NCBI RefSeq assembly: GCF_900176005.1
Contig: NZ_LT838272.1
Coordinates: forward strand, 2,375,587 to 2,439,586
DNA: 64,000 nt
Direction: 5' to 3'
Source: Thermanaeromonas toyohensis ToBE
Lineage (GTDB): Bacteria > Bacillota > DSM-521 > Neomoorellales > Neomoorellaceae
The notes under the pieces were generated by a model. The model had not been told where the DNA came from and made no database searches. It saw only the letters and a list, made by a program, of their open reading frames with translations. A program made the position numbers and the translations under genes. Shown here in pieces: positions 22,182-41,961 of this stretch (position 1 is its first letter; the number at the start of each line of letters is the position of its first letter).

Positions 22182-22300
22182 GGTATATACTTCCAGTGTT
22201 GTAACCAAGTGGTATACATATTTGCTTCCATCAATGTCCAGAAATTCGTGTACATCTCATTCGGAAGGGTAATATTCATTCTAAGGTCCAACTCAAAGAA

Positions 22301-22351
22301 ATGAGCGGTGAACCTCCACCGAGTTTGCAGCGGTAGATGTTCACCGCTCAT
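22301..22351 (-). terminator. Strong inverted repeat after the hpd operon, probable terminator
   Basis: ATGAGCGGTGAAC (22301-22313) and GTTCACCGCTCAT (22339-22351) are perfectly complementary over 13 bp with a 25-nt loop. On the minus strand the distal arm is followed by TTCTTTGAGTT, a partly U-rich tail. It would end transcripts coming from hpdA before they reach the sigK 3' half. The core GCGGTGAAC is shared with the repeat at 23706-23765. Confidence 0.6.
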
Positions 22352-22720
22352 AAAGCACTTTCCCTTCTTCTAAGGCAACGTGACAAACCGTCCACCATGC
22401 GTCCTTACATTTCCTTATTTTCCCGATTAGCAACAATAATGTCTGTGGGAACCTTAAACTGTTTTCACCTCCCGGAGTCCCTTCCTGCCACCTAGTCCCG
22501 CACCCTGTACATAACAATTGTCGATACCACCTTCTTTTTAGGCCTTCGGCCTGTGCCCTCCGGCCTTCGTTACACATATACAGACACCTGTGCTGGCAGC
22601 AAGGGCCGCTCCAGGCGGGGCTGAACAACTAGGGAATAGGCGAAACGCAGCGGAGCCAAAGAGCATATACCACAGGCCGAACCCTTGCTGGGCGCCTTAC
22701 ACTTGCACTCCTCCATTATT
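22352..22720. other. Non-coding stretch between hpdA and the sigK junction
   Basis: No supported gene was found here. A 95-codon open frame exists on the minus strand but has no family signature or good ribosome site. The stretch holds short GC-rich palindromes around 22538-22575 (AGGCCTTCGGCCT and a following GGCCTTCG copy). These could be the decayed end of an insertion or a structured 3' UTR. Confidence 0.4.
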
Positions 22721-23680: not shown

Positions 23681-23705
23681 TCTTTAAGACCCCCTTCTAA
23701 GTACA

Positions 23706-23765
23706 AAGGGCGGTGAACAAGGTGGCTTTATAGACTCTGTCTCTGACACTCAGTTCACCGCCCTT
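23706..23765 (-). repeat. Intercistronic hairpin between the MFS gene and hpdA
   Basis: AAGGGCGGTGAAC (23706-23718) and GTTCACCGCCCTT (23753-23765) are perfectly complementary over 13 bp. The distal arm on the minus strand is followed by TGTACTTAG, which is not a U-tract, so this looks more like an mRNA-processing or stabilising hairpin than a terminator. It shares GCGGTGAAC/GTTCACCGC with the hairpin at 22301-22351, so the two flank hpdA. Confidence 0.6.
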
Positions 23766-23795
23766 CCCAAATATAGTCTACAATTATTTGCCCTA

Positions 23796-25127: not shown

Positions 25128-25187
25128 CTCCTCTAAAGGGATTGGGATTGGAGGGTGCAGGAGCCTGCACCCTCCTTAAAAATTAGT

Positions 25188-25460
25188 CTATTTAGCCGCG
25201 TTATACATTTCGCAGGTAACCGCAATTAATTCGCTGTAGGTCCAGGGCTTGCTCTTTTCCGCTTCGCAGGTTCCTATAAATTCTTCTGTCTCGCTGGCAC
25301 TAAAGTGACTGCAATTTTTACACTTTGGTAGTGCTGTAAAATTAGGGCACACGGGACTATCGATAACTATCAGTTGTTCAGTACGTCTACAAATCCCTTT
25401 AGCTACGTCTACCGGGATAAAATTCCGGCAATCATTATGCTTAAGATCTATATTGGTCAT
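25188..25460 (-). CDS. hpdC: 4-hydroxyphenylacetate decarboxylase small subunit
   Basis: HpdC is the iron-sulfur small subunit found with HPAD and few other glycyl radical enzymes; it holds two [4Fe-4S] clusters and supports the hetero-octamer. The 90-residue protein shows the family pattern closely: HNDCRNF, VDVAKGICR, DSPVCP, PKCKNCSHF, a lone C, W-T-Y, TCE. Candidate ligands are His8, Cys11, Cys24 and Cys38 for one cluster, and Cys47, Cys50, Cys65 and Cys83 for the other. The His/3-Cys plus 4-Cys arrangement is the HpdC hallmark. It lies 14 bp after hpdB. Its presence argues strongly against pyruvate formate lyase or indoleacetate decarboxylase. Confidence 0.93.
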   Translation of the reverse strand: MTNIDLKHNDCRNFIPVDVAKGICRRTEQLIVIDSPVCPNFTALPKCKNCSHFSASETEEFIGTCEAEKSKPWTYSELIAVTCEMYNAAK

Positions 25461-25474
25461 AGATATTACACCCC

Positions 25475-28186: not shown

Positions 28187-28513
28187 TAAAAAATCCCTCC
28201 TGCCCTTGTTTACAAGGTTTTTCTCTCTAACAAAGATCGGGATATGCTTAGAAATATGGTCTTAAGGTTATCCCCTTACTTCACCTCCCCTATAACTTCT
28301 TGTGTTTAATTTCACTGTAACATGCCTCGGAAGCTAAGGAAATTGGCCATCAGTTTGAAAAAAGAAGGATAAATACCCTATATCCTGCCTTAGTACTAGT
28401 TCTAAAGATGTAATTTATAAACTCAAGGCAGGAAAAACAGGAGAGCAAACGAAATATAAAAATTAAAGCCCCAAAAACTCCGTAGACCCTTTAAAGGGAG
28501 AAGTGAGGTAAAA
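28187..28513. promoter_or_regulatory. Divergent control region between hpdB and the PocR-LuxR gene
   Basis: This 327-bp AT-rich region separates two divergent operons. TCCTGCCTT (28383-28391) and AAGGCAGGA (28425-28433) form a perfect 9-bp inverted repeat whose centres are 42 bp apart, about four helical turns. It is a candidate operator for the LuxR-type regulator. A plus-strand promoter can be proposed at TTGAAA (about 28355) and TATATC (about 28379) with 18-bp spacing. Nearer hpdB, CCTTGT-TT-ACAAGG (28204-28217) is a short palindrome directly upstream of the SD. None of these sites is proven. Confidence 0.5.
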
Positions 28514-29179
28514 GTGCCAGGCCTCTGGCCTTCAGAACCCCTACTACAACTACAAACACTACAGGATTTACTGTCTGAGGAGTTAGGCCTTTGCCTGGTT
28601 TTGGTGGACGAGGAAGGTAGAGAGGTTACGTTGCCTTCGGGTTTACCATTGACTTGTTATCACGCGGAAAGCCAAGGCGAGGATTGTCGTGCTGAGCTTT
28701 TAAACCTTATCGGACGGGCCAAGCTAAATAGTGAACCAGTCACCCGGCAGTGTCGCCAAGGGTTATATTGTATGGCATATCAAATTCGCTTAAATCATGA
28801 ACATAAAAAGTTATTTTTGGTAGCCGGTCGTACCCCATGTTTAGACATTTTACAAAAACACTCAAGGTTGCTAATTGCTATTTATTCTCTGCCACTCTGT
28901 TTTAGTATTCACGAAAATATTCCTGAAGGCTCCCGAGTAAAAAACGCTTCCGGTCGCGTTGGTTATGACCTGACCAGCCAGGAAAAAAGGATTTTGTCTC
29001 TTATCGGGGCTGGCTTGTCTAATAAAGACATCGCGGCCAAGCTTTATATAAGTGAAAGTACAGTCAAAACCCATGTAACCCATATCTTACAAAAATTGAA
29101 TCTCTCCAATCGTACAGAAGCAGCCATCTTTGCAGTGGAAAATGGGTTAGTGGTGAGGGAGCATCGTGAAAAGAATTAA
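28514..29179 (+). CDS. PocR-domain / LuxR-type transcription regulator
   Basis: This is a 221-residue protein starting at GTG with SD GAGG 7 nt upstream. Residues about 8-140 resemble a PocR ligand-binding domain: a small-molecule sensor fold with conserved Cys in LTCYH, GEDCRAEL and VTRQCRQGLYCMAYQI, and a glycine near VAGR. Residues about 155-215 are a LuxR/GerE helix-turn-helix (LTSQEKRILSLIGAGLSNKD, KLYISESTVKTHVTHILQKL). It has no receiver domain. It overlaps the kinase gene by 14 bp. Divergent orientation to hpdB suggests it controls the decarboxylase operon, perhaps sensing an aromatic acid directly. Confidence 0.82.
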   Translation: MPGLWPSEPLLQLQTLQDLLSEELGLCLVLVDEEGREVTLPSGLPLTCYHAESQGEDCRAELLNLIGRAKLNSEPVTRQCRQGLYCMAYQIRLNHEHKKLFLVAGRTPCLDILQKHSRLLIAIYSLPLCFSIHENIPEGSRVKNASGRVGYDLTSQEKRILSLIGAGLSNKDIAAKLYISESTVKTHVTHILQKLNLSNRTEAAIFAVENGLVVREHREKN

Positions 29180-31175
29180 AAATTGGCAATTGTTTCCTAC
29201 TATTTATAGTTACTTGTTGTCTTCCATCGGGTTGGTACTGCTCTTATCCTTACTTTTATTTACAGCCTCCTCTTTAAGTATCTTTTTTGCCCGTAACCAA
29301 AATAACATCAATAACCTTCTGGACCGCTCCCTAGCTGTGGCCTGGCAAGAATATAACCTCTTTTACGAAAAGGCTTTAACTTTATTATCACCTCTGGGCT
29401 CCCTAATTGGCGATGAAAAAAAATCCTCTCCCTATATGGAGTACATCTCTAAACTATTAGATAGCCAGGAAGAAATTGATTTTTGGCTTATTGTCGACCA
29501 TCAATCCCATCTACCGGCCCAACTTTCTAAGCTTGTCTATAACAGTTGGCAGCAAAAGGATATAATTACCTGTTCTGAGGTTATATCTCTCTCTGAATTG
29601 AGCCTAATAGATTCCTCTCTAGTTAAAAAAGCGCTAGTTGAAGTAAAAGATACTTCTGGGCAAGGTTTACATTATTTTGCTCCTGTCCTGGTACAAGTCA
29701 TTGTCATGCCACTTACTACTAAGAATTCTAGCTTACAAAGGGCTTTAGTAGTTGGACATATATTAAATAATGATCATGGTACAGCTGATCGCTATTCAAC
29801 CAAAATCCCAGGTTCCTATCTGTCTATCGGTGTAAACGGTATACGTGTATCAGCTAATATTCAAAGCCCTTCCGGTTCTGATTTTGTAGGAGGTATTCAA
29901 AGCGGAATTCTTTTAAAAACGGTTCAAGAAGGTAAAAGATATATAGGCCAAGCGAAGATAGAGCCCAACGAGATACATTTTGTAGCCTCGGATCCTATCA
30001 GGGATTTTGAAGGTAATATAATAGGAGCTTTAAGTGTAGGGGTTCCCTCCCAGGGACTGGCCAATCTAAAACGGGATACTTTACTATCCATTTTTATATC
30101 TGCCTTCGTCTGCCTGAGCGTCGCCATGGGCGTAGCTTCCTTTGTCGCCAGGAAAGTGGCCACTCCTCTAGTAGTTCTAAGTCACTTGGCTAAGGAAATT
30201 TCCCAAACGGAGAGCATTATTTCTGACCATATTGACAAACTAGAAGCTCAACCGGTGGCCAGAATACGAGAGCTTTGGTATTTACAGCGCTGTTTTACGC
30301 GGATGGCCAAAACTCTTTACCAAAAATGTCAAGAAAATCAAGCTTATTTAGCTGAATTGGAAAAAGACAGAGAGGAACTGCAGCGTCTGACCAGTGAGTT
30401 ACAACAAGTAAACCTTTCCCTTGAAAAAAAAGTTGAGGAACAAACTCTCGAATTACGGCAGCTAATAGCAGAGCTTAAAACCCTTAACACACTTAAGTCC
30501 CAATTCCTAGCTAATATGAGCCATGAACTCCGTACACCTTTAAATTCTATCATCGGCTTTTCTGAAATGTTATATGACGAACTGTATGGACCACTCAACA
30601 CAACCCAAAAGGAGTACTTGGAAATAATTCTTAGTAGTGCCCGCCACCTCTTGCAGATTATAAGCGATATCCTGGACCTATCACGGATAGAGCAAGGTAA
30701 GATCGCCCTGAGCAGACAAAAGGTCAGCTTGGAAGAACTCGTCCGTTCAGTAGAAAGTATAATCCGTCCCCAGGCTGAAAACCGTCATCTCTCTTTATTT
30801 GTCCTTCTACCAGATAAGCTACCTATGATTTATGTTGATCCTACTCGAATTAAGCAGGTACTCTATAATCTCCTCTCCAATGCAGTAAAATTTACACCCT
30901 CCGGAGGAACCATTACTATCACAGCTCATTATAACAACCAAGAAATAGCCGTATCCGTGGAAGATACAGGTATTGGAATTAAGGAAGAGGACCAAGCCCG
31001 CGTATTCGATGAGTTTTATCAAGCAGAAAGCTTATATGAAAAAAAATTCGACGGGGTGGGCCTAGGACTACCTTTATCCAAACGTTTAGTTGAGCTTCAC
31101 GGCGGTCGTATTGAATTGCAAAGCAAGTTAGGGAAAGGCACTAAAGTAACCTTCTATTTACCTCTCCACTCTTAA
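29166..31175 (+). CDS. Membrane sensor histidine kinase with Cache-type sensor
   Basis: This is a 669-residue kinase with a GTG start inside the end of the upstream regulator gene. The first membrane helix is about 18-40, the extracytoplasmic region about 42-302 with a Cache-like closing motif (ASDPIRDFEGNIIGALSVG), and the second helix about 306-328. A HAMP-like segment, a long coiled coil (about 385-440) and HisKA (NMSHELRTPLNSIIGF, His453) follow. The ATPase domain has N-box NLLSNAVKF, G1 DTGIGI and G2 GVGLGLPLSKRL. It probably reads an extracellular cue for the hpd locus, with the two receivers that follow as partners. No HPt or attached receiver is present. Confidence 0.88.
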   Translation: MKRIKNWQLFPTIYSYLLSSIGLVLLLSLLLFTASSLSIFFARNQNNINNLLDRSLAVAWQEYNLFYEKALTLLSPLGSLIGDEKKSSPYMEYISKLLDSQEEIDFWLIVDHQSHLPAQLSKLVYNSWQQKDIITCSEVISLSELSLIDSSLVKKALVEVKDTSGQGLHYFAPVLVQVIVMPLTTKNSSLQRALVVGHILNNDHGTADRYSTKIPGSYLSIGVNGIRVSANIQSPSGSDFVGGIQSGILLKTVQEGKRYIGQAKIEPNEIHFVASDPIRDFEGNIIGALSVGVPSQGLANLKRDTLLSIFISAFVCLSVAMGVASFVARKVATPLVVLSHLAKEISQTESIISDHIDKLEAQPVARIRELWYLQRCFTRMAKTLYQKCQENQAYLAELEKDREELQRLTSELQQVNLSLEKKVEEQTLELRQLIAELKTLNTLKSQFLANMSHELRTPLNSIIGFSEMLYDELYGPLNTTQKEYLEIILSSARHLLQIISDILDLSRIEQGKIALSRQKVSLEELVRSVESIIRPQAENRHLSLFVLLPDKLPMIYVDPTRIKQVLYNLLSNAVKFTPSGGTITITAHYNNQEIAVSVEDTGIGIKEEDQARVFDEFYQAESLYEKKFDGVGLGLPLSKRLVELHGGRIELQSKLGKGTKVTFYLPLHS

Positions 31176-31205
31176 AGCCCTAGAATAAAGAGGAGGAAAC
31201 CTTGT

Positions 31206-31604
31206 ATGGAAAACCCAGAACAAAATGCGCCACTGGTACTTATTGTGGAAGACAATCCTGCTAACATGCGTTTAGTATGCGATCTTTTGCACGTCCATGG
31301 TTTCCGGATTTTAAGAGCCTTTAATGCACTAGAAGCCCTAAAAATTATTCGCCACAACCCCCCCGACTTAATTTTGATAGATATTTCCCTTAAGGGTATG
31401 GATGGTTTATCTCTTGTTAAATTATTAAAAACTAATCCAGCTACTAAAAATATCCCCATTATAGCCCTTACTGCACACGCCATGAAACAAACTGAAGAAG
31501 ATGCTTATGCTGCCGGCTGTCAAGGTTTTATTGTTAAACCCATTAATACCCGTTCCTTCCCCTCTCAACTCCGTGAATTTCTGTCGGGGAAACATTCAAA
31601 GTGA
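31206..31604 (+). CDS. Single-domain response regulator (CheY/DivK type)
   Basis: This is a 132-residue protein consisting of one receiver domain: the acidic pocket VEDNPANMRL, the phospho-acceptor Asp in LILIDISLKGMDGL, Thr in IIALTAHAMK and Lys in GFIVKPINT. It has no output domain. The SD GAGGAGG lies 9 nt upstream of the ATG. It follows the kinase by 30 bp and precedes a second receiver by 15 bp. Two stand-alone receivers suggest a phosphorelay, or that one acts as a phosphate sink. Confidence 0.88.
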   Translation: MENPEQNAPLVLIVEDNPANMRLVCDLLHVHGFRILRAFNALEALKIIRHNPPDLILIDISLKGMDGLSLVKLLKTNPATKNIPIIALTAHAMKQTEEDAYAAGCQGFIVKPINTRSFPSQLREFLSGKHSK

Positions 31605-31619
31605 GGAGAGGAATAAACC

Positions 31620-32030
31620 TTGCTAAGACCTGGCATAAAGATATTAGTTATTGAAGACGATCCAAACAGCGCAAGGCTTTTGCACGACCTCCTTACAAGG
31701 CAGGGCGCCATAGTTGTCTGCGAAAATAACGGTCCCGCCGCTATGGCGCGGATCGAAAAAGAAAATTTTGATTTAATCCTCTTAGACCTCCGCCTACCAG
31801 GACAGAACGGCTTTGTGGTAGCAGAACATTTAAGACGACACCCAGCTTCCGCCAATCTTCCGATAATCGTTATTAGCGCCTTTGCCGATCGTCAAAATCG
31901 CTTGCGAGCTTACGAGGCAGGAGCCGATATTTTTTTAAGTAAGCCCATCGATGTTCAAGAGCTCTTGCTTATTATAAAAAACCAGGTAGACCGTAAATTT
32001 TTTAAAGGGTCGGTAAACTGGGCTCCCTGA
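31620..32030 (+). CDS. Second single-domain response regulator, C-terminus in IS remnant
   Basis: This is a 136-residue receiver starting at TTG, with SD GAGGAG upstream. The pocket is VIEDDPNSARL, the phospho-acceptor Asp is in LILLDLRLPGQNGF, and Ser/Ala in VISAFAD and Lys in IFLSKPIDV complete the site. The receiver domain is whole. The last few codons (after about KFFKG) are supplied by sequence that, on the opposite strand, is the broken end of an IS3 transposase. An insertion probably clipped the original C-terminus or any output domain. Confidence 0.85.
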   Translation: MLRPGIKILVIEDDPNSARLLHDLLTRQGAIVVCENNGPAAMARIEKENFDLILLDLRLPGQNGFVVAEHLRRHPASANLPIIVISAFADRQNRLRAYEAGADIFLSKPIDVQELLLIIKNQVDRKFFKGSVNWAP

Positions 32031-32515
32031 TCGCTATTCATTATCTCGGGCTTAGCTTTAGCAATTGCTTCTTTTACTGCTATTAGCACAAAGGCTGTCT
32101 CTAAGCACTGGTCCAGGGCCCAGCTTACTACAAAGCGGGTGTACCAGTCCGTGATGCCCACCAGGTACATCCATCCCCAGACTAGCCGGATGTAGGTGAT
32201 GTCTATACCCCAGACCTGGTTGGGGTAAGTAATAGGAAGGCCCCGCAGCAAGTAGGGGTATACTCGATGCTCGTGGTTTCTCTTGTTTAAGTTAGACTTG
32301 GGATAGAGATGACAGGTATACCCATTTCTCGCATGTGGCACTGGACGCCTTTGCGTTAACCGGAGATCCCTTCCGTCGAAGCTGGGCCGTAATGCGCCTG
32401 GAACCGTAAAAGGGAAACTCGGTAATATACTTCGTCGATATGGTGTTTTATGGCTATTTCTTCTGGGGAAGGGAGCACTGGGTGGCGTAGCTAATTGCAA
32501 AAACGACCAGAAATT
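32004..32515 (-). pseudogene. Decayed IS3-family transposase (OrfB) fragment
   Basis: The integrase core of an IS3-type OrfB is recognisable: NQVWGIDITYIRL, YLVGITDWYTRFVVSWAL, AKPEIMNSDQGAQFT with the first two catalytic Asp residues. It stops right after QFT, before the catalytic Glu. Upstream the frame is broken: pieces such as FPFYGSRRITAQLRR and HMREMG appear in other frames. At least two frameshifts and a 3' truncation are visible, so the gene is dead. It abuts the second receiver gene, and the rest of the IS is missing. Confidence 0.85.
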
Positions 32516-32593
32516 CATGATCTAAATGACCTTCGCAAACTGCTGTTCGAATTTGCTAAGATACTAAGAAGGGACAACTTATAGGACCCACAC

Positions 32594-34129
32594 TCACTGA
32601 TCGTACCTGTCCATCGAAGCCGCCGGGATGATGATCCGCCTGCAAAGGCTATTATCAGTCTCCGGCCGAGGTATTTTAGCCAGAACTGTAATGTTTACTT
32701 CCGACAGGTTATACCTTCCGGAGCTGACACGTCCTGAAATGATAACCTGTGTCACCAGTGCCCTGATTAGCGATTTCTTGGACGTAAAATCCAGGTCATT
32801 TAGCCTACTTAATACCTCCTGGGCCAATCTGCGTAACTCCTCTGTCCTTTGTTCTAGGGTTCCAGCCCCTTGGAAGACAGCCATAAGCTCCCTATGGCGC
32901 TGCTCCAAACTTTCCTTTCGCCGTTTTAACTCAGCCAATTTATTTTTTGTTTGATCATCCAATTCTAGGAGGCCAGAAGCCAGTGCATCCAGGATGGCCA
33001 CCTTTCCCTTCTCAACTTCTTTTAAATGCTTCTCAATGCGCTCTATCTCCTTACTTATCTCTTCCACCTGGGGGGAAGATTCTAAGGCAGCTTTAACCAG
33101 CCTCTCAGGGTCCTTAAGCCAAGAACAAACCTGTTCCCACACCACGTTCTCCAGGGGTTCTGCCAAAAGCATCTTGAGAGGCCTGCACCCCGGATTTTTT
33201 GTGCCTTGGCTGTTTTTCCTGCAAGTATATCGCCGTTCCCTAACCCCCCACCATTTAGAGGATACCCCGGTCATGCTGTTGCCGCAATCAGCGCAGGTAA
33301 TCAACCCACTTAAGAGATAATTGTGTCGACCTCGACCTGCCCATAAGCGCCGGGCCTCCTTCAATTTCTTTTGGGCTTTCTCCCAAAGGTTAGGGTCAAT
33401 GATGGGAGGAACTGAAATATCTATATCTTTATATCTCCACCTTCCCGTATATACCGGATTAGTTAATATCTGTCTTACTACCATCCGGTGCCATAAACCT
33501 TGTCGTTTACGGGTCGGTATTCCTAAATCATTTAACCGCTTAGCCACACCATTAACCCCTATATCTTCCTGAACAAACCACTGGAAAATATTCTTCACCA
33601 CCGCTGCTTCTTCTTCCAATATCGACACTTTGCCCCTCTCCGGGTCGTAGTTGTAGCCATAGTTGTAAAAACCTATGGGAATACCACCCTGCCTGGCCTT
33701 CTGGGTCTTCCCCCTGATCATACGCTCACGGATCTTCTCTTTTTCAAACTCAGCAATAGCCCCTCTGATGGCATAAAACATGCGGCCTTCCGGGGTATCC
33801 TGCCAGGTGAAGTCCAGGAAATCAAGCCGTACTCCAGCCTTCTCAAATTCCTCCGTGAGAAGTAGCTGGTGCGCCAATCTCCTGGATAAGCGGTCCGGGT
33901 CGCGCACGATTATAACGTCTATACGGCCTTCTTGAACTGCTTCACGTAAAGCGTTCAACCCCGGCCTGTCCAGGGTGGCCCCACTCACACCTTCATCAGC
34001 AAATTCTAATATCACCGCGGCACCTAACGAAATAGCCCGACGGTAGCAAGCCTCACGCTGCTCCGCCAGGCTATAACCATGCTTTACCTGCTCCTCTGTG
34101 CTAACTCTTAGGTAGATTGCTGCCTGCAC
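32594..34129 (-). CDS. SpoIVCA-like large serine recombinase
   Basis: This 511-residue recombinase starts at GTG 34129. The catalytic domain has IYLRVSTEEQ with nucleophile Ser10, VRDPDRLSRR, and EFEKEKIRERMIRGK. A recombinase domain follows (GYNYD, RKRQGLWHRMVVRQILTN), then a zinc ribbon (CADCGNSMTG and distal Cys residues), a coiled coil (about 345-420) and a basic C-terminus. The N-terminal half strongly recalls B. subtilis SpoIVCA, which excises skin from sigK. It is the only intact site-specific recombinase in the element and therefore the likely excisionase. It sits 7.5 kb and 10.4 kb from the two junctions, which is unusually internal. A 54-residue ORF overlaps its start. Confidence 0.92.
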   Translation of the reverse strand: MQAAIYLRVSTEEQVKHGYSLAEQREACYRRAISLGAAVILEFADEGVSGATLDRPGLNALREAVQEGRIDVIIVRDPDRLSRRLAHQLLLTEEFEKAGVRLDFLDFTWQDTPEGRMFYAIRGAIAEFEKEKIRERMIRGKTQKARQGGIPIGFYNYGYNYDPERGKVSILEEEAAVVKNIFQWFVQEDIGVNGVAKRLNDLGIPTRKRQGLWHRMVVRQILTNPVYTGRWRYKDIDISVPPIIDPNLWEKAQKKLKEARRLWAGRGRHNYLLSGLITCADCGNSMTGVSSKWWGVRERRYTCRKNSQGTKNPGCRPLKMLLAEPLENVVWEQVCSWLKDPERLVKAALESSPQVEEISKEIERIEKHLKEVEKGKVAILDALASGLLELDDQTKNKLAELKRRKESLEQRHRELMAVFQGAGTLEQRTEELRRLAQEVLSRLNDLDFTSKKSLIRALVTQVIISGRVSSGRYNLSEVNITVLAKIPRPETDNSLCRRIIIPAASMDRYDQ

Positions 34130-34272
34130 TTTGATCTACAGGCCTCCAATACCTTCTGGGCTAGTAGTCGGTACGCATCCCGCAGTCCTGTACTGTCTTC
34201 TGAGGAATAAATAACCTTCAGGTTAACAGGAAAATTCCCCGAAGCCTTCAATTTACGGTTTTTACTTGGCAC
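34108..34272 (-). CDS. Small ORF (54 aa) overlapping the recombinase start
   Basis: It starts at GTG 34272 with SD GGGGAG 7 nt upstream, begins PSKNRKLKASGNF, contains the central stretch KVIYSSEDSTGLRDAYRLLA, and ends at TAA 34108, overlapping the recombinase start by 22 bp. The spacing and overlap imply translational coupling. Function is unknown. The basic N-terminus, size and position make it a candidate recombination directionality factor or regulator; that is inference only. Confidence 0.6.
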   Translation of the reverse strand: MPSKNRKLKASGNFPVNLKVIYSSEDSTGLRDAYRLLAQKVLEACRSKCRQQST

Positions 34273-34329
34273 CGGTCATCTCCCCTTCCCCTATTATTTT
34301 ACGAAGGTTCTAGATTGTCCTACTACAGG

Positions 34330-34358
34330 AAAAGGACTCCAGATAAAGGAGCCCTTTT
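34330..34358. terminator. Bidirectional terminator-like hairpin upstream of the recombinase operon
   Basis: AAAAGGACTCC (34330-34340) pairs with GGAGCCCTTTT (34348-34358) with one mismatch and a 7-nt loop. T-runs flank both sides (TTTTAGTCTT on plus, TTTTCC on minus). It would insulate the recombinase unit from read-through out of the HEPN/MNT and group II intron side. Confidence 0.6.
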
Positions 34359-34487
34359 AGTCTTAATAAAACGCTTTGAACCTCCAGCCTCTTTCAGTTT
34401 TTTCCTCGCCGTCAAGGACGTTATCCCTCACCAGTAGTCTGAAGCTCAGGAAGGCCTGCATGGGCAGACTCTCCGAATGGTCCCTAT

Positions 34488-34560
34488 ATCGAGTAGGAGG
34501 GGGCGGCTAGCCCCCGTCCTCTCACACCACCGGACATGCGGGTCCGCATCCGGCGGTTCA
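34488..34560 (-). ncRNA. Group II intron ribozyme domains V and VI
   Basis: Just after the reverse-transcriptase stop, the minus strand folds into a 34-nt-class domain V hairpin (GAACCGCCGGATGCGG / CCCGCATGTCCGGTGGTG). A domain VI helix follows with GGACGGGGGC pairing to GCCCCCTCC, ending in CGAT. These are the catalytic core and the branch-point helix of the intron RNA. Confidence 0.85.
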
Positions 34561-35979
34561 CCAAGCTTGACGAAGACAAGAATAGCGTTCGGTTAAGCTC
34601 ATGAGGCCCTGGGACTGCCAATAGGCATTACCCAGGGCTCTATTCATTGGACCATGAGCCATCCACCATGGCCCTTTGCGAGCATTAGCAAATTGATGTA
34701 CCACCCATTCCGGCAGTCCCAATGCGCGTAGCTCCCGATATCTGGTCCGTACTCGCTTCCACTGCTTCCAGAGGCACATGCGCAGCCTCCTCCGCATCCA
34801 GCCTTCTATCTCCTCAAAAACGCTGGGCGTTTCGGCCAGGGCAAAGTATCCTATCCACCCGCCCAAATAGGCGTTGAGACGCTCTATGCGTTCGGCCATA
34901 CTCACGGGTTTATTCCGGGCAGTTATCTCCCGAATTTTCCCTTTCACCCGCTCGATGGTCTGAGGCGCCAGGCGGATAAGAATTTCTCCTGTCTTGCGCT
35001 TGTGCATGCTAAACCCCAGGAATTTCAGTTTCCACGGCCGGTCTACCGCACTTTTCTGCTCGTTAATTTTGAGCTTCAACCGTTCCTGCAGGAACTTACG
35101 GATACTTGCCATGACCCTCTCCCCCGCCCGCTTGCTCTTGACGTAAATGTTGCAGTCATCAGCATAGCGGACAAACTTGTGGCCCCTCTTCTCCAGTTCT
35201 TTGTCCAGGTCGTCCAGGAGTATGTTGGCCAAAAGTGGACTTAAAGGCCCGCCCTGCGGCGTCCCTTCCACCGTCTCTACGACCACCCCGTTTACCATGA
35301 CACCTGCCTGGAGATAGCGACGGATAAGGGTAAGCACTCTCTTATCTGTCACTTTTCGGGCCACTCGGGCCATGAGTATGTCGTGGTTGACCCGGTCAAA
35401 GAATTTCTCTATGTCCAGGTCCACGACCCATTCGTATCCTTCTTCCACGTATTGACGCGCTCTCCTTACCGCATCATGGGCTCTCCTCCCAGGCCGAAAC
35501 CCGTAACTGGCCTCCGAAAACTGCGGGTCGAAAATGGGCGTCAATACTTGCAGGAGAGCCTGCTGGATCAGGCGGTCCATTGCGGTAGGTATCCCTAATA
35601 GCCGCTTGCCTCCCCCGGGTTTCGGGATTTCGACCCGGCGCACGGGCTTAGGCCTATAGGTACCTGTAAGCAATTCCTCCCGGATGCGCGGCCATTCGGC
35701 ACGAATTTGGTCCCGAAGCCGTTCGGTCGGGATGCCATCTACGCCGGGCGCGCCTCCGTTCCGCTCTACCCGCCTCAAAGCGGCCAGCATGTTGCTTCTT
35801 TCCACCACCTGCTCCATCAGGCCGCTACCTTGGCCTCCGCGAGGTGACGTCCCGCCTTGTGCCGGAGAAGAACTCGGCCCTCCCCCAGTCCCCCGTGGCT
35901 TCACCACTTCCTCCTGTGGGCAGGCCCCTTCCGGGGTTTTCTGCTTTCTTCGCCCTTCTCGCGAACGCACCAGTCCCAC
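34558..35979 (-). CDS. ltrA: Group IIC intron-encoded reverse transcriptase/maturase
   Basis: This 473-residue protein has NGGAPGVDGIPTERLRD (RT0/1), RRVEIPKPGGGKRLLGIPT, the catalytic FVRYADDCNIYVKS with YADD, and TPQGGPLSPLLANILLDDLD. The maturase X domain follows (IERLNAYLGGWIGYF) and the basic C-terminus around WKQWKRVRTRYRELRALGLPEW. It has no endonuclease domain, as expected for class C. Similarity in wording to the thermostable GsI-IIC enzyme is high. The first roughly 55 residues are low-complexity and Gly/Pro-rich; the true start is more likely at the ATG near residue 55 (MEQVVERSNM). Confidence 0.93.
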   Translation of the reverse strand: MGLVRSREGRRKQKTPEGACPQEEVVKPRGTGGGPSSSPAQGGTSPRGGQGSGLMEQVVERSNMLAALRRVERNGGAPGVDGIPTERLRDQIRAEWPRIREELLTGTYRPKPVRRVEIPKPGGGKRLLGIPTAMDRLIQQALLQVLTPIFDPQFSEASYGFRPGRRAHDAVRRARQYVEEGYEWVVDLDIEKFFDRVNHDILMARVARKVTDKRVLTLIRRYLQAGVMVNGVVVETVEGTPQGGPLSPLLANILLDDLDKELEKRGHKFVRYADDCNIYVKSKRAGERVMASIRKFLQERLKLKINEQKSAVDRPWKLKFLGFSMHKRKTGEILIRLAPQTIERVKGKIREITARNKPVSMAERIERLNAYLGGWIGYFALAETPSVFEEIEGWMRRRLRMCLWKQWKRVRTRYRELRALGLPEWVVHQFANARKGPWWMAHGPMNRALGNAYWQSQGLMSLTERYSCLRQAW

Positions 35980-36389
35980 CTCTGACTTGATGTTCGGGCC
36001 TTCCCCTGGAGTTCATGACCCCCAGGGTACTATGCCCAAAGCTTCCTCCTGCCAGTTCAGCCGTGCCTTCCGACACGGGTTACCAGCTCTACCTGGCTTA
36101 TCCGGCAGGCCTCCCCGGGTAAGAGCGTTAACCTTCACCCCGCGCCCGCCCCATATACTCCGCCGTCCTTATGTCTGCCTGGGATTTCGCTGTGTTATGC
36201 CAGCTCATCCGAACGGCTTAGCCTCTTATGGGGTTCTTGTTCATCGGGCCGTGGCTTTGCCTCCGGCTTCCTTCGGATTCCACCTCACGATGGACACCCT
36301 TGCCTTCGGCTAGCAGGCTCGTGCTGCCTCGCCTGCAGTGGACTCTCACCACCAAGTTAACGCCCATGCCGGGCGCACATAAACAGAGT

Positions 36390-36408
36390 GCCCGGCAAAA
36401 CGCCGGGC
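36390..36408 (-). terminator. Terminator of the HEPN/MNT operon, intron insertion site
   Basis: GCCCGGC (36390-36396) and GCCGGGC (36402-36408) form a 7-bp GC-rich stem with a 5-nt loop, starting 12 bp after the HEPN stop. On the minus strand it is followed by ACTCTGTTTAT and then the intron start. The normal U-tract is interrupted by the intron. Confidence 0.75.
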
Positions 36409-36419
36409 TGGACAGATGG

Positions 36420-36809
36420 CTATTCTGATATATTAGATAAGAACGTGCTAACTTCGTCTATCAGGGACCTTACGGCGTCTTTCGCTTTCTCTGTCTCCTC
36501 CAGGGTAAAGCTCTTAAAGTCATCATAATCGGCCTCGGTCCTCAGATTAAAAAGTATTGATAGAGTTGTGCTGGCCTCTTTGCTTATTAGGCCAGGCTTC
36601 ACAAACTCACGGTTAAACAGAGAAATAACACCGCTATGCTTAGCTGAATCCAACCTCTTAATCGCCAGCAATGCCCTTGCCGCATGAAAGGCCGCATAGT
36701 AAAAGCGGTTGATAGCCCCATTATAAGACCCTACTTCTAGTAACTGCTCTCCCTCCCGAAAGGTTCGTTCCGCTTTTTCCAGGCGCCACCGGCTTAACTC
36801 TATGCTCAT
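36420..36809 (-). CDS. HEPN-domain (UPF0332) protein, toxin partner
   Basis: This 129-residue all-helical HEPN protein of the UPF0332 type shows YNGAINRFYYAAFHAARALL, SAKHSGVISLFNREFVK and the late NLRTEADYDDF segment containing the conserved Arg and the Tyr/Asp pair. HEPN partners in such pairs are usually RNA-cleaving toxins, neutralised when the MNT partner adds AMP to a tyrosine. It overlaps the nucleotidyltransferase gene by 4 bp. On a mobile element it probably serves as a stabilising toxin-antitoxin module. The classic R-x4-6-H motif is not clear, so RNase activity is uncertain. Confidence 0.82.
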   Translation of the reverse strand: MSIELSRWRLEKAERTFREGEQLLEVGSYNGAINRFYYAAFHAARALLAIKRLDSAKHSGVISLFNREFVKPGLISKEASTTLSILFNLRTEADYDDFKSFTLEETEKAKDAVRSLIDEVSTFLSNISE

Positions 36810-37180
36810 AGAGGAATTCCTTCTTCCTGGAGGGACTTATAGAAATGCGTCTCCTTAAATAAGGGCGCTGAATAGCGATCAGCGGACATAATTACTGGCG
36901 ATACTACAACATCATGCTTTAAATTTACCTCTACGGCTGCCTCGATTATGGCCTCTCTGGCAGCGCTGTCTTCCCTTTGCACGAGTACGAGTATATCAAT
37001 ATCCGACTCTGGAGTAGCGGTGCCGCGGGCTACCGAGCCAAATAAGCGAATCCCCAAAAGGTTCGCACCTAGCTCTCGCCTGAGAAATTCACAGAACTCC
37101 TTGATAGCTTTGTCGGCTCTATCTGGTATAATATTTTGGGTCACGGTGACAATCCCTCCTAAACCCTGATTATATACCAT
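36806..37180 (-). CDS. MNT-type minimal nucleotidyltransferase, antitoxin partner
   Basis: This 124-residue nucleotidyltransferase contains the diagnostic LFGSVARGTATPESDIDILV motif (GSxARG and DxD). A third acidic residue is possible in LKHDVVV. MNT proteins of HEPN pairs AMPylate and silence the toxin. The start is uncertain: the listed ATG is 37180, but internal starts about 10 residues later are possible. It precedes and overlaps the HEPN gene by 4 bp, the usual order for translational coupling. It lies 144 bp downstream of the agr-type kinase gene. Confidence 0.85.
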   Translation of the reverse strand: MVYNQGLGGIVTVTQNIIPDRADKAIKEFCEFLRRELGANLLGIRLFGSVARGTATPESDIDILVLVQREDSAAREAIIEAAVEVNLKHDVVVSPVIMSADRYSAPLFKETHFYKSLQEEGIPL

Positions 37181-37324
37181 CTGCCCTGCACTTACCAGTA
37201 TTTACAAACTAAGGGAGCCTCACAAGATCCAGCCTCCCCCAAAACATCCCGGATTGTGTACTCAACTTCTGAGGGTGTACTCGCTACTGTTCACCTTCTG
37301 GACCTCAACTTCCCTGGGCTGCGC

Positions 37325-38194
37325 TTATCTAGTTTTTTGAATTGTATTAAGAGTTAATACCTGTCTACATGGGCTCTTAGGTAGCCTTACCGTAAATACT
37401 GTTATTCCTTCCTCAACTCGCGAGTCAAAAGAAATGATTCCACCGCATTCAATCACCAAATTCTTAACAATAAACAAACCCATGCCAGACCCTTTCTCTC
37501 TCTTGGTCGTAAATCCAGGTTCAAAGATCCTTTCTTGAATTTCAGGCGCAATAGTACCGGGATTGGTTATTTCAAATACAAACCAATCAGCTTCTTCGTC
37601 AATTCTTATTTTAAGCCATTTCTCAGCATAAAAGCTCGTCTCATAAATAGCATTATCAAGCAAATTGCCCAGAATACTTACCAGCTTTTCTGGAGATATA
37701 GAAAGCCCGGCTAAGTTAGTAGTTATTTCTAACGAAGCTTGTAGATAACTAATGGTTGCCAGCTTGCTGCTAATAAGAGCAGCAACCTCCGGTCTTTCCA
37801 AACAGACAAGCTTTTCTATTTGAATCAAGTCCTTAGATAGTCGCTTAATATAATCAACCGCCTCATTATCTCGCTTCATTTGGATAAGTCCTAATATTAC
37901 TTGTAAGTGGTTTATAAAATCATGATGCTTAGACCTCAAGGTAGTGATCAATCTCTCGGCTTCTTCCAATCTTACCATTATCTTTTCGGCTTCCCTTTCC
38001 TTATCGGCTAACCTTAGCATTTCCTGGACTACCCAAAGACTTGAAATCATCGAAGCAATGATGATACACAAAACAACGAAAATGGGTATTCTAAAACTCG
38101 TAAAAACATCAAAAACATAATTATAAGCTAATAAAAGGAACAAGAATAACTGCAGTAGGAGCAGGTCTACAAACAATAGCCACCTTTTCTTCAT
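37325..38194 (-). CDS. AgrC-like (Spo0B/GHKL-type) histidine kinase
   Basis: This 289-residue kinase has two N-terminal membrane helices (about 5-28 and 36-57), a coiled coil, and the Spo0B/AgrC-type phospho-acceptor SKHHDFINHLQVILGLIQM (His91). The GHKL ATPase follows with N-box ILGNLLDNAIYET and glycine loop GSGMGLFIVKNL. It overlaps the stop of a 162-residue membrane protein gene. Together the two equal one AgrC (about 450 residues, 7-8 helices), suggesting a split peptide receptor. No LytTR or other response regulator follows, so its output must be encoded elsewhere or use the sporulation phosphorelay. Role in sensing the AgrD peptide is inferred from gene order. Confidence 0.82.
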   Translation of the reverse strand: MKKRWLLFVDLLLLQLFLFLLLAYNYVFDVFTSFRIPIFVVLCIIIASMISSLWVVQEMLRLADKEREAEKIMVRLEEAERLITTLRSKHHDFINHLQVILGLIQMKRDNEAVDYIKRLSKDLIQIEKLVCLERPEVAALISSKLATISYLQASLEITTNLAGLSISPEKLVSILGNLLDNAIYETSFYAEKWLKIRIDEEADWFVFEITNPGTIAPEIQERIFEPGFTTKREKGSGMGLFIVKNLVIECGGIISFDSRVEEGITVFTVRLPKSPCRQVLTLNTIQKTR

Positions 38195-38682
38195 TAATTA
38201 TCCCTGCTTACCTGTTTTTCGAGAGGTTTAGTCAACGTAAACCCAAACCTACTATTAACTATTAACATTATTACCAGAAAAACATTTTCTGTATGTCCTA
38301 TTAATACGTGTAACCAAGGGTTGCTTAAGACATCCGTTACACTTAGTTGGAAAAACTGTATTATTAGTATGGATATACCTCCACCAAGCATTCCCAGGCT
38401 CGAGCTAACCAGAGCAGCCCCCAGAGCAATCCCCCAATTCACTTTACCGATCGTTCTTATTAAAAGGGAAAAAATCAAAGTAAGAATAATTGTATGAGTG
38501 CCAAGGGGAATATGGTAATGACCATATATTCCCCGAACTATCCATACCGCAACCCCATAAGTAATACTAAGGGTTATAAGAGTCCTTAAGCTGCTTCTAT
38601 AACCGAATAAACGCAAACCAGTCATAGACAATAAGAATGCATTTATTATATGTAAAAAAAGTAGGACTCGAAGGTCCTCCAA
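38194..38682 (-). CDS. Integral membrane protein, probable split AgrC sensor domain
   Basis: This 162-residue protein has about five membrane helices and no catalytic motif. Hydrophobic blocks include VLLFLHIINAFLLSMTGLRLF, GTHTIILTLIFSLLI and VFLVIMLIVNS. It lies between agrD (about 95 bp) and the kinase gene, whose start overlaps its end. The position and hydropathy match the N-terminal sensor half of AgrC, here on a separate polypeptide. A transporter role cannot be excluded. Family name unknown. Confidence 0.65.
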   Translation of the reverse strand: MEDLRVLLFLHIINAFLLSMTGLRLFGYRSSLRTLITLSITYGVAVWIVRGIYGHYHIPLGTHTIILTLIFSLLIRTIGKVNWGIALGAALVSSSLGMLGGGISILIIQFFQLSVTDVLSNPWLHVLIGHTENVFLVIMLIVNSRFGFTLTKPLEKQVSRDN

Positions 38683-38777
38683 AATAGCCCATCCTCCCTA
38701 AAAAGAGGATCTCAAATTTTTTTTTATAATTCTCAAGTTCTTATCCTTTCACTTCAAAGCTACTTCGTCCACACTGC

Positions 38778-38900
38778 CTACTTAAGTAACTTGTTAGGCA
38801 CTTCAGGTTGGTAGGACCACGGACCGGTAGCAGCAGCGACATTGGCAAAAGCCAGTAAACTGAGCAAAGTCGCCGCTAAAATAATTAGAACCCGCCTCAT
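38778..38900 (-). CDS. agrD: AgrD-like cyclic autoinducer precursor, Thr in place of ring Cys
   Basis: This 40-residue peptide was read directly from the sequence (ATG 38900, TAG 38778). A basic start MRRVLII leads an amphipathic/hydrophobic helix up to about residue 24. The signature TGPWSYQPEVPNKLLK follows. QPEVP plus LLK is the hallmark of clostridial cyclic-lactone autoinducers. The ring nucleophile normally lies six residues before that Gln and is Cys; here it is Thr25. If processed, the ring TGPWS would close as an ester (lactone) rather than a thiolactone. SD AGGAGGGG lies 6-7 nt upstream. The downstream membrane protein and kinase, and agrB beyond the IS, complete the locus. Confidence 0.85.
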   Translation of the reverse strand: MRRVLIILAATLLSLLAFANVAAATGPWSYQPEVPNKLLK

Positions 38901-38945
38901 TCTTATCCCCTCCTATCTCAATTTTTTGCTTAAATCTCCCTCTAT

Positions 38946-38998
38946 CTCTCGCTCTCTTAGATTTTCAAGTTTTTCATCCTCCATCTAAGAAACGAGAG
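38946..38998 (-). promoter_or_regulatory. Hairpin in the agrD leader
   Basis: CTCTCG...TCTTAGAT (38946-38962) pairs with ATCTAAGA..CGAGAG (38983-38998) as 8 bp plus 6 bp around a small internal loop. It lies about 50 nt upstream of agrD and is not followed by a U-tract, so it is not an obvious terminator. It also overlaps a 23-codon ORF without an SD. It may structure the agrD leader or mark old DNA left after the IS insertion. Confidence 0.35.
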
Positions 38999-39046
38999 AG
39001 AAGGGTTAAAAATTACCATGGGTATTTTTGAGTATTTTTTATCCTA

Positions 39047-39222
39047 AGGTTTTGGGTGGACCCTCACCTTAAAATTCGCCCCCAGGCTACCCTATCATTT
39101 CTCGCAGGGTCTTGCCCTTTCATTCCTTCGTCCTGCCTTAAGGGGGCGGGTGGGGCCTGCCTTTACTTAATTACAGGGTCTATGCCCTTATGGAGGGATT
39201 TGGCTTCCCCCACCCAAAACCT
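39047..39222 (-). ncRNA. Structured non-coding end of the IS110 element, bridge-RNA candidate
   Basis: AGGTTTTGGGTGG (39047-39059) and CCACCCAAAACCT (39210-39222) are a perfect 13-bp inverted repeat closing a GC-rich 176-nt segment that begins 10 bp after the transposase stop. Internal G-rich and C-rich runs (AAGGGGGCGGGTGGGG and complements) allow further stems. IS110-family transposases use a bridge RNA from one non-coding end. Placement downstream fits the IS1111 branch. Loop-to-target matching was not done. Confidence 0.4.
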
Positions 39223-39232
39223 CCCTAGCTCT

Positions 39233-40513
39233 TTAAGCTACTTTCTTTAGTTGTTCTTCCCGGTATTTCCCTAATACTTTGCTGGCATCATATTCCTTCT
39301 TCTGGGTAATAAGGGTAAACATCACCCGCACTAGCTTTAAAGCCACAGCTACTAGAGCCTGCTTCCTCGTTAAAGGATTTTCCGGCCTCTTTAGGAAATA
39401 GTGATATAGCGCTTTAAATTCTTTGTTCTTAGCCACTAGAATAAGGCTCACCTGGTAAAGTAGATTCCTTAGCCCCGGCCGACCCCTCTTGGATATGGTG
39501 GTCTTGGCCTTCTGTTTCTTCCCCGATTTCTGGGCCGTTAGGTTATAACCAGCTAGTTTCCGTATCTGTCTCCAGTGCTGGTATTTCGCTGGGTCACCTA
39601 TCTCCCCTAAAAAGCCTGCCGCTGTTACTACCCCTACCCCAGGAATGCTTAAAAGATAATTCGCTAAACCTGTCTCCTCTAGGTATCGCCCCATGGCTTC
39701 CTCTGTCTTCCTTATTTGACCTTGGTAAAACTCGATTTCTTCCAAGCAGGCTTGAAGTTTGACTTTAGCCCCTTCTAGCCCTTCTTTAACACCTATGCTC
39801 TTTTCTGCTGCTTGCCTTAGAGCAAGAGCCCTCTTTATCCCTACTCTACTGTTCGAGGCCTGTTTTAGCCCTTCTTCTAGTTCTTCTAACTTTAGGCTTA
39901 ATATGTCCTTAGGAAAGGGACAGTTCCTTAAGACCCACTGGGCTGCCTTGCCTAAAAGACTCTTAAATACTTCCATTAGCTCGGGAAAATATTCATCTAC
40001 TATGGCTTTAAGCTGGCAGAGGGCAGCGTTAAGTTTTTTGTGTTCCTGCTGCCGGGTAATATAAAGGGTCCTCAGTTCTGCATATATCCCTTCCGGTAAG
40101 ATGCAGTGCAAGAATTTGCCCTCTTTTACCAGTTGGGCTATAAGGCCTGCATCCTTGCGGTCGTTCTTGTCTTGGCTATTGTCTTCCATCTCTTTGCTGT
40201 TTTTAACGTGATAAGGATTTACAATTACTACAGTGTAACCTGCCTCTTTTAGGAAATAGGCTAGAGGTTTCCAGTAGTGTCCTGTGGGTTCCATGCCTAT
40301 AATGATACGTTCCGCCTTCTCTTTCTCCTTGGCTTCGCTTATTTTCCCTAGTAGACGGCAGAAACCTTCTCTGCTATTATGAAAGTAGAACGGTTTTACT
40401 ACGTCGATACCCATGCTGTTATATATCCGGGCGTAATGGTTTTTCTTAGCTACATCCACTCCCACGATCAGCACGTTGCCATAAACTAAGGCTTTCTTTT
40501 CGGCCTTTTGCAT
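39233..40513 (-). CDS. IS110-family DEDD transposase
   Basis: This 426-residue protein has the N-terminal RuvC-like DEDD domain: VGVDVAKKNHYARIY, IIGMEPTGHYWKPLAYFL and NDRKDAGLIAQL supply the acidic residues. A central coiled-coil follows, and the C-terminal Transposase_20 domain contains LLSIPGVGVVTAAGFLGEIGD and the conserved Ser region around AQKSGKKQKAKTTISKRGRP. It is intact and full length. Its SD lies in a hairpin (40523-40572). The element interrupts the agr locus; expression on the same strand as agr may also drive agrD. Confidence 0.93.
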   Translation of the reverse strand: MQKAEKKALVYGNVLIVGVDVAKKNHYARIYNSMGIDVVKPFYFHNSREGFCRLLGKISEAKEKEKAERIIIGMEPTGHYWKPLAYFLKEAGYTVVIVNPYHVKNSKEMEDNSQDKNDRKDAGLIAQLVKEGKFLHCILPEGIYAELRTLYITRQQEHKKLNAALCQLKAIVDEYFPELMEVFKSLLGKAAQWVLRNCPFPKDILSLKLEELEEGLKQASNSRVGIKRALALRQAAEKSIGVKEGLEGAKVKLQACLEEIEFYQGQIRKTEEAMGRYLEETGLANYLLSIPGVGVVTAAGFLGEIGDPAKYQHWRQIRKLAGYNLTAQKSGKKQKAKTTISKRGRPGLRNLLYQVSLILVAKNKEFKALYHYFLKRPENPLTRKQALVAVALKLVRVMFTLITQKKEYDASKVLGKYREEQLKKVA

Positions 40514-40522
40514 CGCTTGCTC

Positions 40523-40572
40523 GCCTCCTGGTATCTGAGGTTTTGTCGTTCAATTTCTTTCTACCAGGAGGC
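40523..40572 (-). promoter_or_regulatory. RBS-sequestering hairpin before the IS110 transposase
   Basis: GCCTCCTGGTA (40523-40533) and TACCAGGAGGC (40562-40572) are a perfect 11-bp inverted repeat. On the mRNA, the arm proximal to the start contains the SD AGGAGGC 9 nt before the ATG. Read-through transcripts from agrB would fold and hide the SD, whereas a transcript starting inside the loop would not. This is a known protective strategy in other insertion sequences. Confidence 0.65.
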
Positions 40573-40797
40573 TTTCTTATTGGCAACGGCTATCCTAAAT
40601 CATTACAGGAATGCTTTTTATAAAGTGCAAGTGTATAAAGTCAATAATAGGAACACCTCTAAAGGCACAAATCATACCGTGAAAGTATCTCTCTCGCAGC
40701 CTGTTCTCAGAACTTAGCTTTAGCAGCTTAGACCATATACCCGCTTCTTCTTAAATATGTTGCAGTTTAATTATCGCTCCATAGATATATCAGGTCT

Positions 40798-41427
40798 TTA
40801 TGTAAAATGTTTAAGCAAGGCATCCATTTTCCCTACTACCCTGTAGCCTAATGGTGTAAGGGTGAACAATTGCCATGCCATGCCCAAACAGCTAGATAGT
40901 ATCATCTTTCTTCCAATAATCTCTACAACAAAACTCAGTTCCCAAAGACTTACGATACCCCAAACGGTTAACAAGGAAAAAGAGATAATTCTTAAGTACC
41001 TTCTTTGCAGCTGAGAGGAAATTGGTTTTCCTGGGGTTTCTGCTGGAACGTATCTATAAATAATATAGAATCCGACAAGAAACATAATAATGGGTATAGA
41101 TATGAGTAGCGTATAATTGTAATTGGGATGGAAGTACATTTTTACTAGATATCCAAATACTGAAAAAACGCTCACTCCAATTAAATTACATCGTAATGGC
41201 GAGGAAGCATGGGCACCGCCAGAAAAAATCCTAAACACAGAAGCAGTAATGGCTGCGGCCAATACATAGGGGAGTATTCGTAACAATAAAGCTATAATAA
41301 TTAACGCAATATAACCAGAAATGCTCGTTAAAAACAAGCGCAGACCAAATAAAATTATCTCCACATCTCGTCCGGATTCATTAGCCAAATAATGTGCCGC
41401 TCGGTTTAATAAACTGCTGCCGCCCAT
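40798..41427 (-). CDS. agrB: AgrB-like autoinducer peptide protease/cyclase
   Basis: AgrB is a membrane cysteine endopeptidase that cleaves AgrD and closes the ring. The 209-residue protein has the active site FRIFSGGAHASSPLRC with His73 and Cys80, the seven-residue spacing of the family, and about five membrane helices. The sequence before the ATG at 41427 has no clear SD; a start a few codons later is possible. It is the first agr gene, 168 bp inside the sigK junction. Its natural partner agrD lies 1.9 kb downstream beyond the IS110 element. The catalytic pair is intact, so peptide maturation remains plausible if both genes are transcribed. Confidence 0.9.
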   Translation of the reverse strand: MGGSSLLNRAAHYLANESGRDVEIILFGLRLFLTSISGYIALIIIALLLRILPYVLAAAITASVFRIFSGGAHASSPLRCNLIGVSVFSVFGYLVKMYFHPNYNYTLLISIPIIMFLVGFYIIYRYVPAETPGKPISSQLQRRYLRIISFSLLTVWGIVSLWELSFVVEIIGRKMILSSCLGMAWQLFTLTPLGYRVVGKMDALLKHFT

Positions 41428-41595
41428 GATAAGATTATATTCGCCATAATTTGCCTGTATCCTTCATCTTCTATTAATTAATTTGGGTGAGTAATAGATT
41501 GCTCATATCATCAGGGACAGAGGCAAATACCGGATACGCTATTACAACAACCTGCAGGATGTGTTGCGGAGGAAGACGGGCCATTACAATCTCAT

Positions 41596-41633
41596 GCTAC
41601 CCTTTGTAATTCAGATTTCATTTTCAATACACC
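41596..41633. other. Recombination junction at sigK 5' half (attP half + attB half)
   Basis: The element arm is GCTACCCTTTGTAA (41596-41609), followed by 8 nt before the TC dinucleotide at 41618-41619 inside the core ATTTC (41615-41619). The chromosomal arm is ATACACC (41627-41633), 7 nt beyond. These mirror the arms at 22144-22181 at identical distances. The rejoined attB keeps GGTGTAT...ATGCACC (minus strand) as a dyad. Confidence 0.85.
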
Positions 41634-41961
41634 GGGCAGCATAGGTAGCCAGTTTAGTTCCCTTTTCGGAATTAAAAGTATTGATGGCTTTAATTAAACC
41701 TATGGTACCGATGGAGATAAGATCGTCCATGTCCTCGCCCGTTCCTTCAAACTTTTTAGTAATATGGGCCACGAGCCGCAAATTACGTTCAATTAAAATA
41801 TCCCTGGCTTCCCGGTCACCTTTTTTAAACTTCTCTAGGTAATATTGTTCTTCCTCCTCGCTTAAGGGCTGTGGGAAGGCATTGTTGGATAGATAAGATA
41901 AAAGCAAGGCCAAACCCTTAAGGACAGAAAGAGCCACCAGCGCCAGGATAGTAGGCACCAT
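41611..41961 (-). CDS. sigK: Pro-sigma-K, N-terminal half (gene split by the intervening element)
   Basis: This is the N-terminal 116 residues of pro-sigma-K. A hydrophobic pro-sequence ([20 protein letters not shown]) is removed by SpoIVFB during sporulation. [17 protein letters not shown] follows, then region 2 with [20 protein letters not shown] and [17 protein letters not shown], ending [11 protein letters not shown]. The frame then hits TGA at 41611-41613, one codon after the core. Region 2 binds the -10 element and core polymerase. Without the C-terminal half (21800-22159) the product cannot recognise promoters, so excision is needed. SD GGGAGGGG lies upstream of the ATG. Confidence 0.95.

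Follow-up and report, generated by a model that had tools for sequence, protein, structure and literature searches.

Whether AgrB peptidases may close the rings of their signal peptides through threonine, in addition to cysteine or serine, is the question raised by a short reading frame in the window (the whole stretch of 64,000 nucleotides of Thermanaeromonas toyohensis ToBE that was analysed). The nucleophilic side chain at the ring position of its product is the hydroxyl of Thr25, as opposed to the Cys or Ser described for AgrD precursors. It appears probable, with a fair degree of confidence, that this is an agr quorum-sensing locus whose precursor closes its ring via the threonine hydroxyl. 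The gene order, the intact AgrB, the orthology, the purifying selection, the restriction of the ring position to Cys, Ser and Thr, and the recurrence of Thr are read from the sequence, and the cleavage sites, the ester bond and the sensing role are the parts of the explanation that we infer.

The precursor and its neighbouring genes

The agrD gene (38778-38900, minus strand, stop codon included) encodes the 40-residue precursor MRRVLIILAATLLSLLAFANVAAATGPWSYQPEVPNKLLK, in which Gln31-Pro32 is preceded six residues earlier by Thr25 (codon ACC, 38826-38828, minus strand). Both the reading frame and this spacing had been reported in the initial annotation and are borne out by translation, and the threonine is indeed at the ring-nucleophile position, as judged from the sequence and from the census described below. 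That the peptide is an AgrD is likewise upheld, as it scores 24.0 bits with the NCBIfam AgrD model TIGR04223 (curated cutoff, 19), compared with 23.6-39.8 bits for Thr-type orthologs. The initial annotation had proposed such a model search; once run, it revealed that the standard AgrD model does not miss the peptide. The possibility of a chance reading frame was rejected on the basis of this above-cutoff match, together with the ortholog alignment.

Three segments, all on the minus strand, can be delimited within the precursor. The leader (residues 1-24, 38829-38900) ends in ANVAAA according to the AgrD alignment, and its boundary is placed by analogy with cleavage between A24 and S25 in Clostridium thermocellum. 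The predicted ring, Thr25-Gly-Pro-Trp-Ser29 (38814-38828), is assigned from the sequence and from the presence of Cys, Ser or Thr six residues before QP (position -6) in 121 of 122 AgrDs, and it is followed by the C-terminal recognition tail YQPEVPNKLLK (residues 30-40, 38781-38813), identified by the conserved Y/H-Q/E-P motif. Between the window and Moorella stamsii, 14 of the 40 agrD codons differ, nine of them silently (dN 0.046, dS 0.51), which argues that the threonine peptide is kept by purifying selection.

Upstream of agrD on the same strand is agrB (209 aa; 40798-41427, minus strand; PF04647, 127 bits), which is 1.9 kb away owing to an IS110 element; in M. stamsii, no insertion sequence intervenes between the two genes. 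The catalytic columns of the AgrB alignment are conserved (His in 124 of 125 sequences, Cys in all 125), and the window protein has His73 (codon 41209-41211, minus strand) and Cys80 (codon 41188-41190, minus strand) in these columns; the catalytic pair is thus intact, as the initial annotation had stated. Downstream, a 162-aa multi-helix membrane protein of family A4 (38194-38682, minus strand) precedes a sensor histidine kinase with SPOB_a and HATPase_c domains identified by Pfam (37325-38194, minus strand), an order that is kept in relatives. Because some genomes join the A4-family protein and the SpoOB-type kinase in a single frame of approx. 460 aa, the two window proteins can be read as a split AgrC-like receptor, the former probably being the peptide-sensing half and the latter the catalytic half. 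No AgrA (LytTR) response regulator was found among the open reading frames around the agr locus, and such a regulator may be encoded elsewhere in the genome. A HEPN-nucleotidyltransferase gene pair, possibly a toxin-antitoxin system, adjoins the operon (36420-37180); a HEPN gene 77% identical to that of the window occurs in a comparable element of another genome of the host family (G013).

Ring position among relatives and AgrB partners

Relatives were sought with AgrB in the 18 genomes of the host family, and across the phylum with AgrB and an AgrD profile. AgrB was found in 15 of the 18 genomes, and the host genome itself (3.33 Mb, one contig) has four AgrB genes, whose AgrDs are of the Thr (window), Ser, Cys and Cys types. 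The closest relatives of the window AgrB, at 71% and 66% identity, come from two members of the host family, M. stamsii (G011, NZ_PVXL01000027.1) and G013. The M. stamsii AgrD (...AAATGPWSYQPEVP) is 90% identical to that of the window, with the ring region TGPWSY, and is also of the Thr type, whereas the G013 AgrD (...AAASGPWGYQPEVP) is 70% identical and of the Ser type; in G002, also of this family, the ring region reads SGSWGY. A Thermincola metagenome-assembled genome encodes another Thr-type AgrD (...AAATGSNGYQPEVP, TGSNGY), and the relatives read, Thermincola included, share the gene order agrB-agrD-membrane protein-kinase. The phylum-wide search added the Thr members TGFWSY (G019) and TGNWSY (G090), and in the same group Ser and Cys members such as SGPFSY, SGNCGY, CSTWGY and CAIFGY. 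An AgrD-like Thr peptide (TTIAAY) is also present beside receptor genes in G136, where no AgrB is encoded within about 2 kb. At family and class level, searches centred on G019, G090, G223 and G054, groups with few genomes, yielded no new Thr members. Plasmids gave no match to AgrD; for AgrB, nothing matched in phage records, and IMG/VR contigs contained no relative.

Since several related lineages show the same change to threonine, with intact processing enzymes alongside, the Thr type looks like a real variant and not a broken gene. The initial annotation had raised the concern that Cys in close relatives might mark this copy as a dead mutant. This explanation was rejected, as the nearest AgrD orthologs, with Thr or Ser, are each accompanied by an intact AgrB, and Cys is confined to more distant members of the clade.

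The census of the ring position covered peptides adjoining AgrB, with the motif defined solely by the downstream [YHFC]-[QE]-P-x-x-P; the window AgrD is outside this count because the insertion sequence puts agrD too far from agrB. Among 122 distinct AgrDs, position -6 is occupied by Cys in 73, Ser in 44 (36% of distinct AgrDs in the phylum sample), Thr in four and Lys in one, and its entropy is 1.19 bits, compared with 3.2-3.5 bits at the four positions that follow it in the ring. Given that the AgrD profile used in the phylum search included Ser and Thr, the distribution was also checked in the subset obtained through AgrB only, without any AgrD profile; these 29 AgrDs comprise 17 with Ser, 11 with Cys and one with Thr. 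Position -6 is thus essentially limited to three nucleophilic side chains beside a conserved cysteine peptidase, as would be expected of a ring-closing residue. The lone exception, L165 (G249; ...ATKVFILYEPDTP), has Lys at -6 and Thr at -7 and possibly forms a six-residue threonine ring.

In a tree of 124 AgrB rows, the Cys/Ser/Thr label takes 15 changes, versus an average of 41 with shuffled labels, and the Thr rows are not monophyletic. A smaller tree, with moderate internal support and some long branches, includes the window; there, Thr is again mixed with Ser around the window and the Thermincola Thr is placed elsewhere. Members with Ser and with Cys occur within the AgrB clade of the window. 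AgrB columns that separate partners of the Cys type from those of the Ser/Thr type were listed; no claim is attached to them, as they are confounded by phylogeny.

The insertion sequence and the sigK-intervening element

Two features of the surroundings had been overlooked in the initial annotation, namely an insertion sequence between agrB and agrD and an element that splits sigK around the agr locus. The former, of the IS110 family (38908-40616, minus strand), was delimited by its junctions and by comparison of its eight genome copies, and encodes a transposase (39233-40513; NF033542, 221.6 bits). As all eight copies in the host genome, that of the window included, are near-identical, the insertion appears to be recent, and it makes the transcription of the window agrD uncertain. 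It is therefore conceivable, albeit rather doubtful, that the agr locus of this strain is in decay, with IS110 uncoupling agrD from agrB so that the peptide is not expressed; the threonine peptide would then work in relatives, and this reading is compatible with a threonine-closed ring. The recency of the insertion is in keeping with decay, as is the promoter scan, which gave no clear promoter upstream of agrD (chance level). Nonetheless, the insertion sequence has the orientation of the agr genes, its right end abuts AGGAGGGGATAAGAATG, the Shine-Dalgarno region of agrD, so that the ribosome-binding site and start codon are retained, the junction preserves AGGAGGGG directly upstream of the agrD ATG, and every reading frame is intact.

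A similar arrangement is seen at other copies. The right junctions (window copy; L192-L199) read TAGGAGGG in six of the eight copies and a close variant in the other two, and an open reading frame starts 13-16 nt past five of the copies (agrD and frames of 71, 238, 427 and 494 aa), as if ribosome-binding sites were targeted and restored.

The agr locus is carried on a sigK-intervening, skin-like element of about 19.5 kb (22155-41620), which was delimited by the split sigK and by its equivalent in G013. Comparison with sigK places the interrupted 5' part (residues 1-116) at 41611-41961 and the interrupted 3' part at 21800-22168, both on the minus strand; residues 5-123 and 112-220 match at two separate places, and TGAAAT is common to both junctions. 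No intact sigK was found elsewhere in the host genome, where the best full-length match (49% identical) is another sigma factor. The element encodes a large serine recombinase with Resolvase, Recombinase and zinc ribbon domains (32594-34129, minus strand), and the two complementary parts of sigK thus flank a recombinase-bearing segment, as in the skin elements of Bacillus subtilis and Clostridioides difficile. What sets the window element apart from these is its cargo, an agr operon and a gene cluster for 4-hydroxyphenylacetate decarboxylase (22721-31175; large subunit NF033715, 1675 bits). The cluster also comprises an activase, an MFS transporter, a PocR/LuxR regulator and a cache-domain histidine kinase. 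The element further contains a group II intron with a reverse transcriptase/maturase at 34488-36294 (RF02001, RF01998 and RF00029; RVT_1 and GIIM), as well as the HEPN-nucleotidyltransferase pair. Outside the element, a c-di-GMP-I riboswitch (12410-12498, 78.8 bits) precedes a cluster of genes that resemble those of type II secretion/type IV pili.

The agr operon of G013 likewise follows an interrupted sigK (G013:C1, about 1498540-1511868; L033/L048), although in this case the gene is broken close to its 3' end. The missing tail, IEKKAIQKLLKEL, is found at a distance of about 12.6 kb, immediately beyond another serine recombinase (34% identical). Split sigK genes also occur in two other genomes of the host family (G003 and G017), where AgrB is encoded on different contigs.

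The predicted product and known lactone signals

According to the explanation that we favour, Cys80 of AgrB would cut AgrD after Ser29 to form an acyl-enzyme, and the hydroxyl of Thr25 would attack this intermediate to yield a TGPWS macrolactone, in which an ester joins the Thr25 hydroxyl to the Ser29 carboxyl. With the leader removed between A24 and T25, the pentapeptide would be exported and then sensed by the downstream split AgrC (the 162-aa protein and the kinase). The Thr25-Ser29 lactone is the most likely product by analogy with C. thermocellum, which makes a Ser25-Phe29 lactone pentapeptide confirmed by LC-MS/MS, with cleavage after A24 and before Y30 (PMC5322536); on account of this layout, the TGPWS ester ring proposed in the initial annotation stands as the best prediction. 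The calculated [M+H]+ is 529.2405 for the cyclic form and 547.2511 for the linear form. Several points can be raised against a threonine ester. Thr is a bulkier nucleophile, a secondary alcohol, and the predicted rings do not have the usual bulky residues (Pro inside and Ser at the end in the window, GSNG in Thermincola); the TGPWS ring is unusually polar. In addition, S. aureus AgrB1 and AgrB2 could not process a Ser-containing AgrD (PMC10482373), so that nucleophile compatibility is specific to each AgrB.

A tail-less lactone would have a free threonine amine, and an O-to-N acyl shift might therefore convert it to homodetic cyclo(TGPWS), comparable to the tail-less Listeria peptides. That this head-to-tail ring is the mature signal, with the threonine lactone being transient and Thr serving as the N-terminal residue that undergoes the shift, is unlikely, though worth keeping in mind. 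The leader here ends in AAA directly before Thr, and tail-less pentapeptide autoinducers do rearrange; a half-life of 1.3 min has been reported for a tail-less thiolactone, and after 22 h at 37 C a lactone analogue had undergone 48% rearrangement and 36% hydrolysis, in an article that also cites work on S-to-N shifts in Ruminiclostridium (PMC11297923). However, such shifts are far slower for esters than for thioesters (PMC11297923), and in C. thermocellum it is the Ser lactone pentapeptide itself that was reported in the supernatant (PMC5322536).

The two remaining readings both appear improbable. If Thr25 were no nucleophile, signal peptidase might free a linear signal between AAA and T, with AgrB acting as a simple protease or not being involved; the leader resembles an ordinary Sec signal ending in AAA, the ring is without the usual hydrophobic residues, and the Thr peptide of G136 has receptor genes in the absence of a nearby AgrB. 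Such a reading is nonetheless difficult to reconcile with the near-complete restriction of position -6, with the exchange of Cys, Ser and Thr within a single AgrB clade, and with the conserved AgrB catalytic residues. A six-residue ring, TGPWSY, cut between Tyr30 and Gln31 (calculated [M+H]+, 692.30), would account for the near-invariant Tyr or His at -1 (120 of 122 AgrDs) as a part of the product, although an invariant residue suits recognition by the enzyme more than a species-specific signal, and the C. thermocellum product of the same layout stops at residue 29, before Tyr30 (PMC5322536).

The threonine-closed TGPWS lactone would resemble several known signals. The C. thermocellum peptide (Clo1313_2818) shares the leader up to A24, the ring at residues 25-29, Tyr30 before a conserved tail and, as predicted here, an oxygen-ester ring; it differs in its Ser25 nucleophile and in that its gene was reported to lie away from any apparent agr operon (PMC5322536). 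The lactone signal of Staphylococcus intermedius/pseudintermedius also stems from an AgrD with a hydroxyl residue in place of Cys and is closed by AgrB, as predicted here, but it is a Ser-containing nonamer with an N-terminal tail from an agrBDCA operon with a response regulator, whereas the window has Thr, a predicted tail-less ring, a split receptor and no adjacent response regulator. Enterococcus faecalis GBAP, made by the FsrB/FsrD system, is likewise a lactone signal from an AgrB-type enzyme (PMC3673130); its ring is larger, fsrD is within fsrB, and there is no Thr nucleophile. The Cys-type clostridial QPE-motif peptides of TIGR04223 share the leader, the ring position six residues before QP, the QPEVP tail and the AgrB partner, with the Cys thiolactone being the reported norm. 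Thus, the initial view that lactones are known only with Ser in a few staphylococcal agr systems does not hold, given GBAP, C. thermocellum and the share of Ser in the phylum sample. No report of a Thr-ring AgrD was found in the open-access literature searched, and it is threonine at the ring position, as opposed to lactone signals or Ser, that appears to be new.

The recurrent threonine at the ring position is real, and the ester chemistry, by analogy, is probable. More tentatively, and only as a plausible broader picture, an AgrB clade might close rings with threonine, with Cys, Ser and Thr being evolutionarily interchangeable within it; the host would use all three chemistries at once, and its threonine operon would be on an element that is cut from sigK in the mother cell during sporulation, where the signal genes would be lost. 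Reported AgrD-derived rings are closed by Cys or, less often, by Ser, and a recurrent Thr beside an intact AgrB would widen the chemistry of this family of peptidase-cyclases. The natural sets of Cys, Ser and Thr orthologs offer material for studying how the nucleophile affects cyclisation and signal stability. Searches keyed to Cys, in turn, would miss many signals, as Cys is absent from this position in about 40% of the distinct AgrDs in the census.
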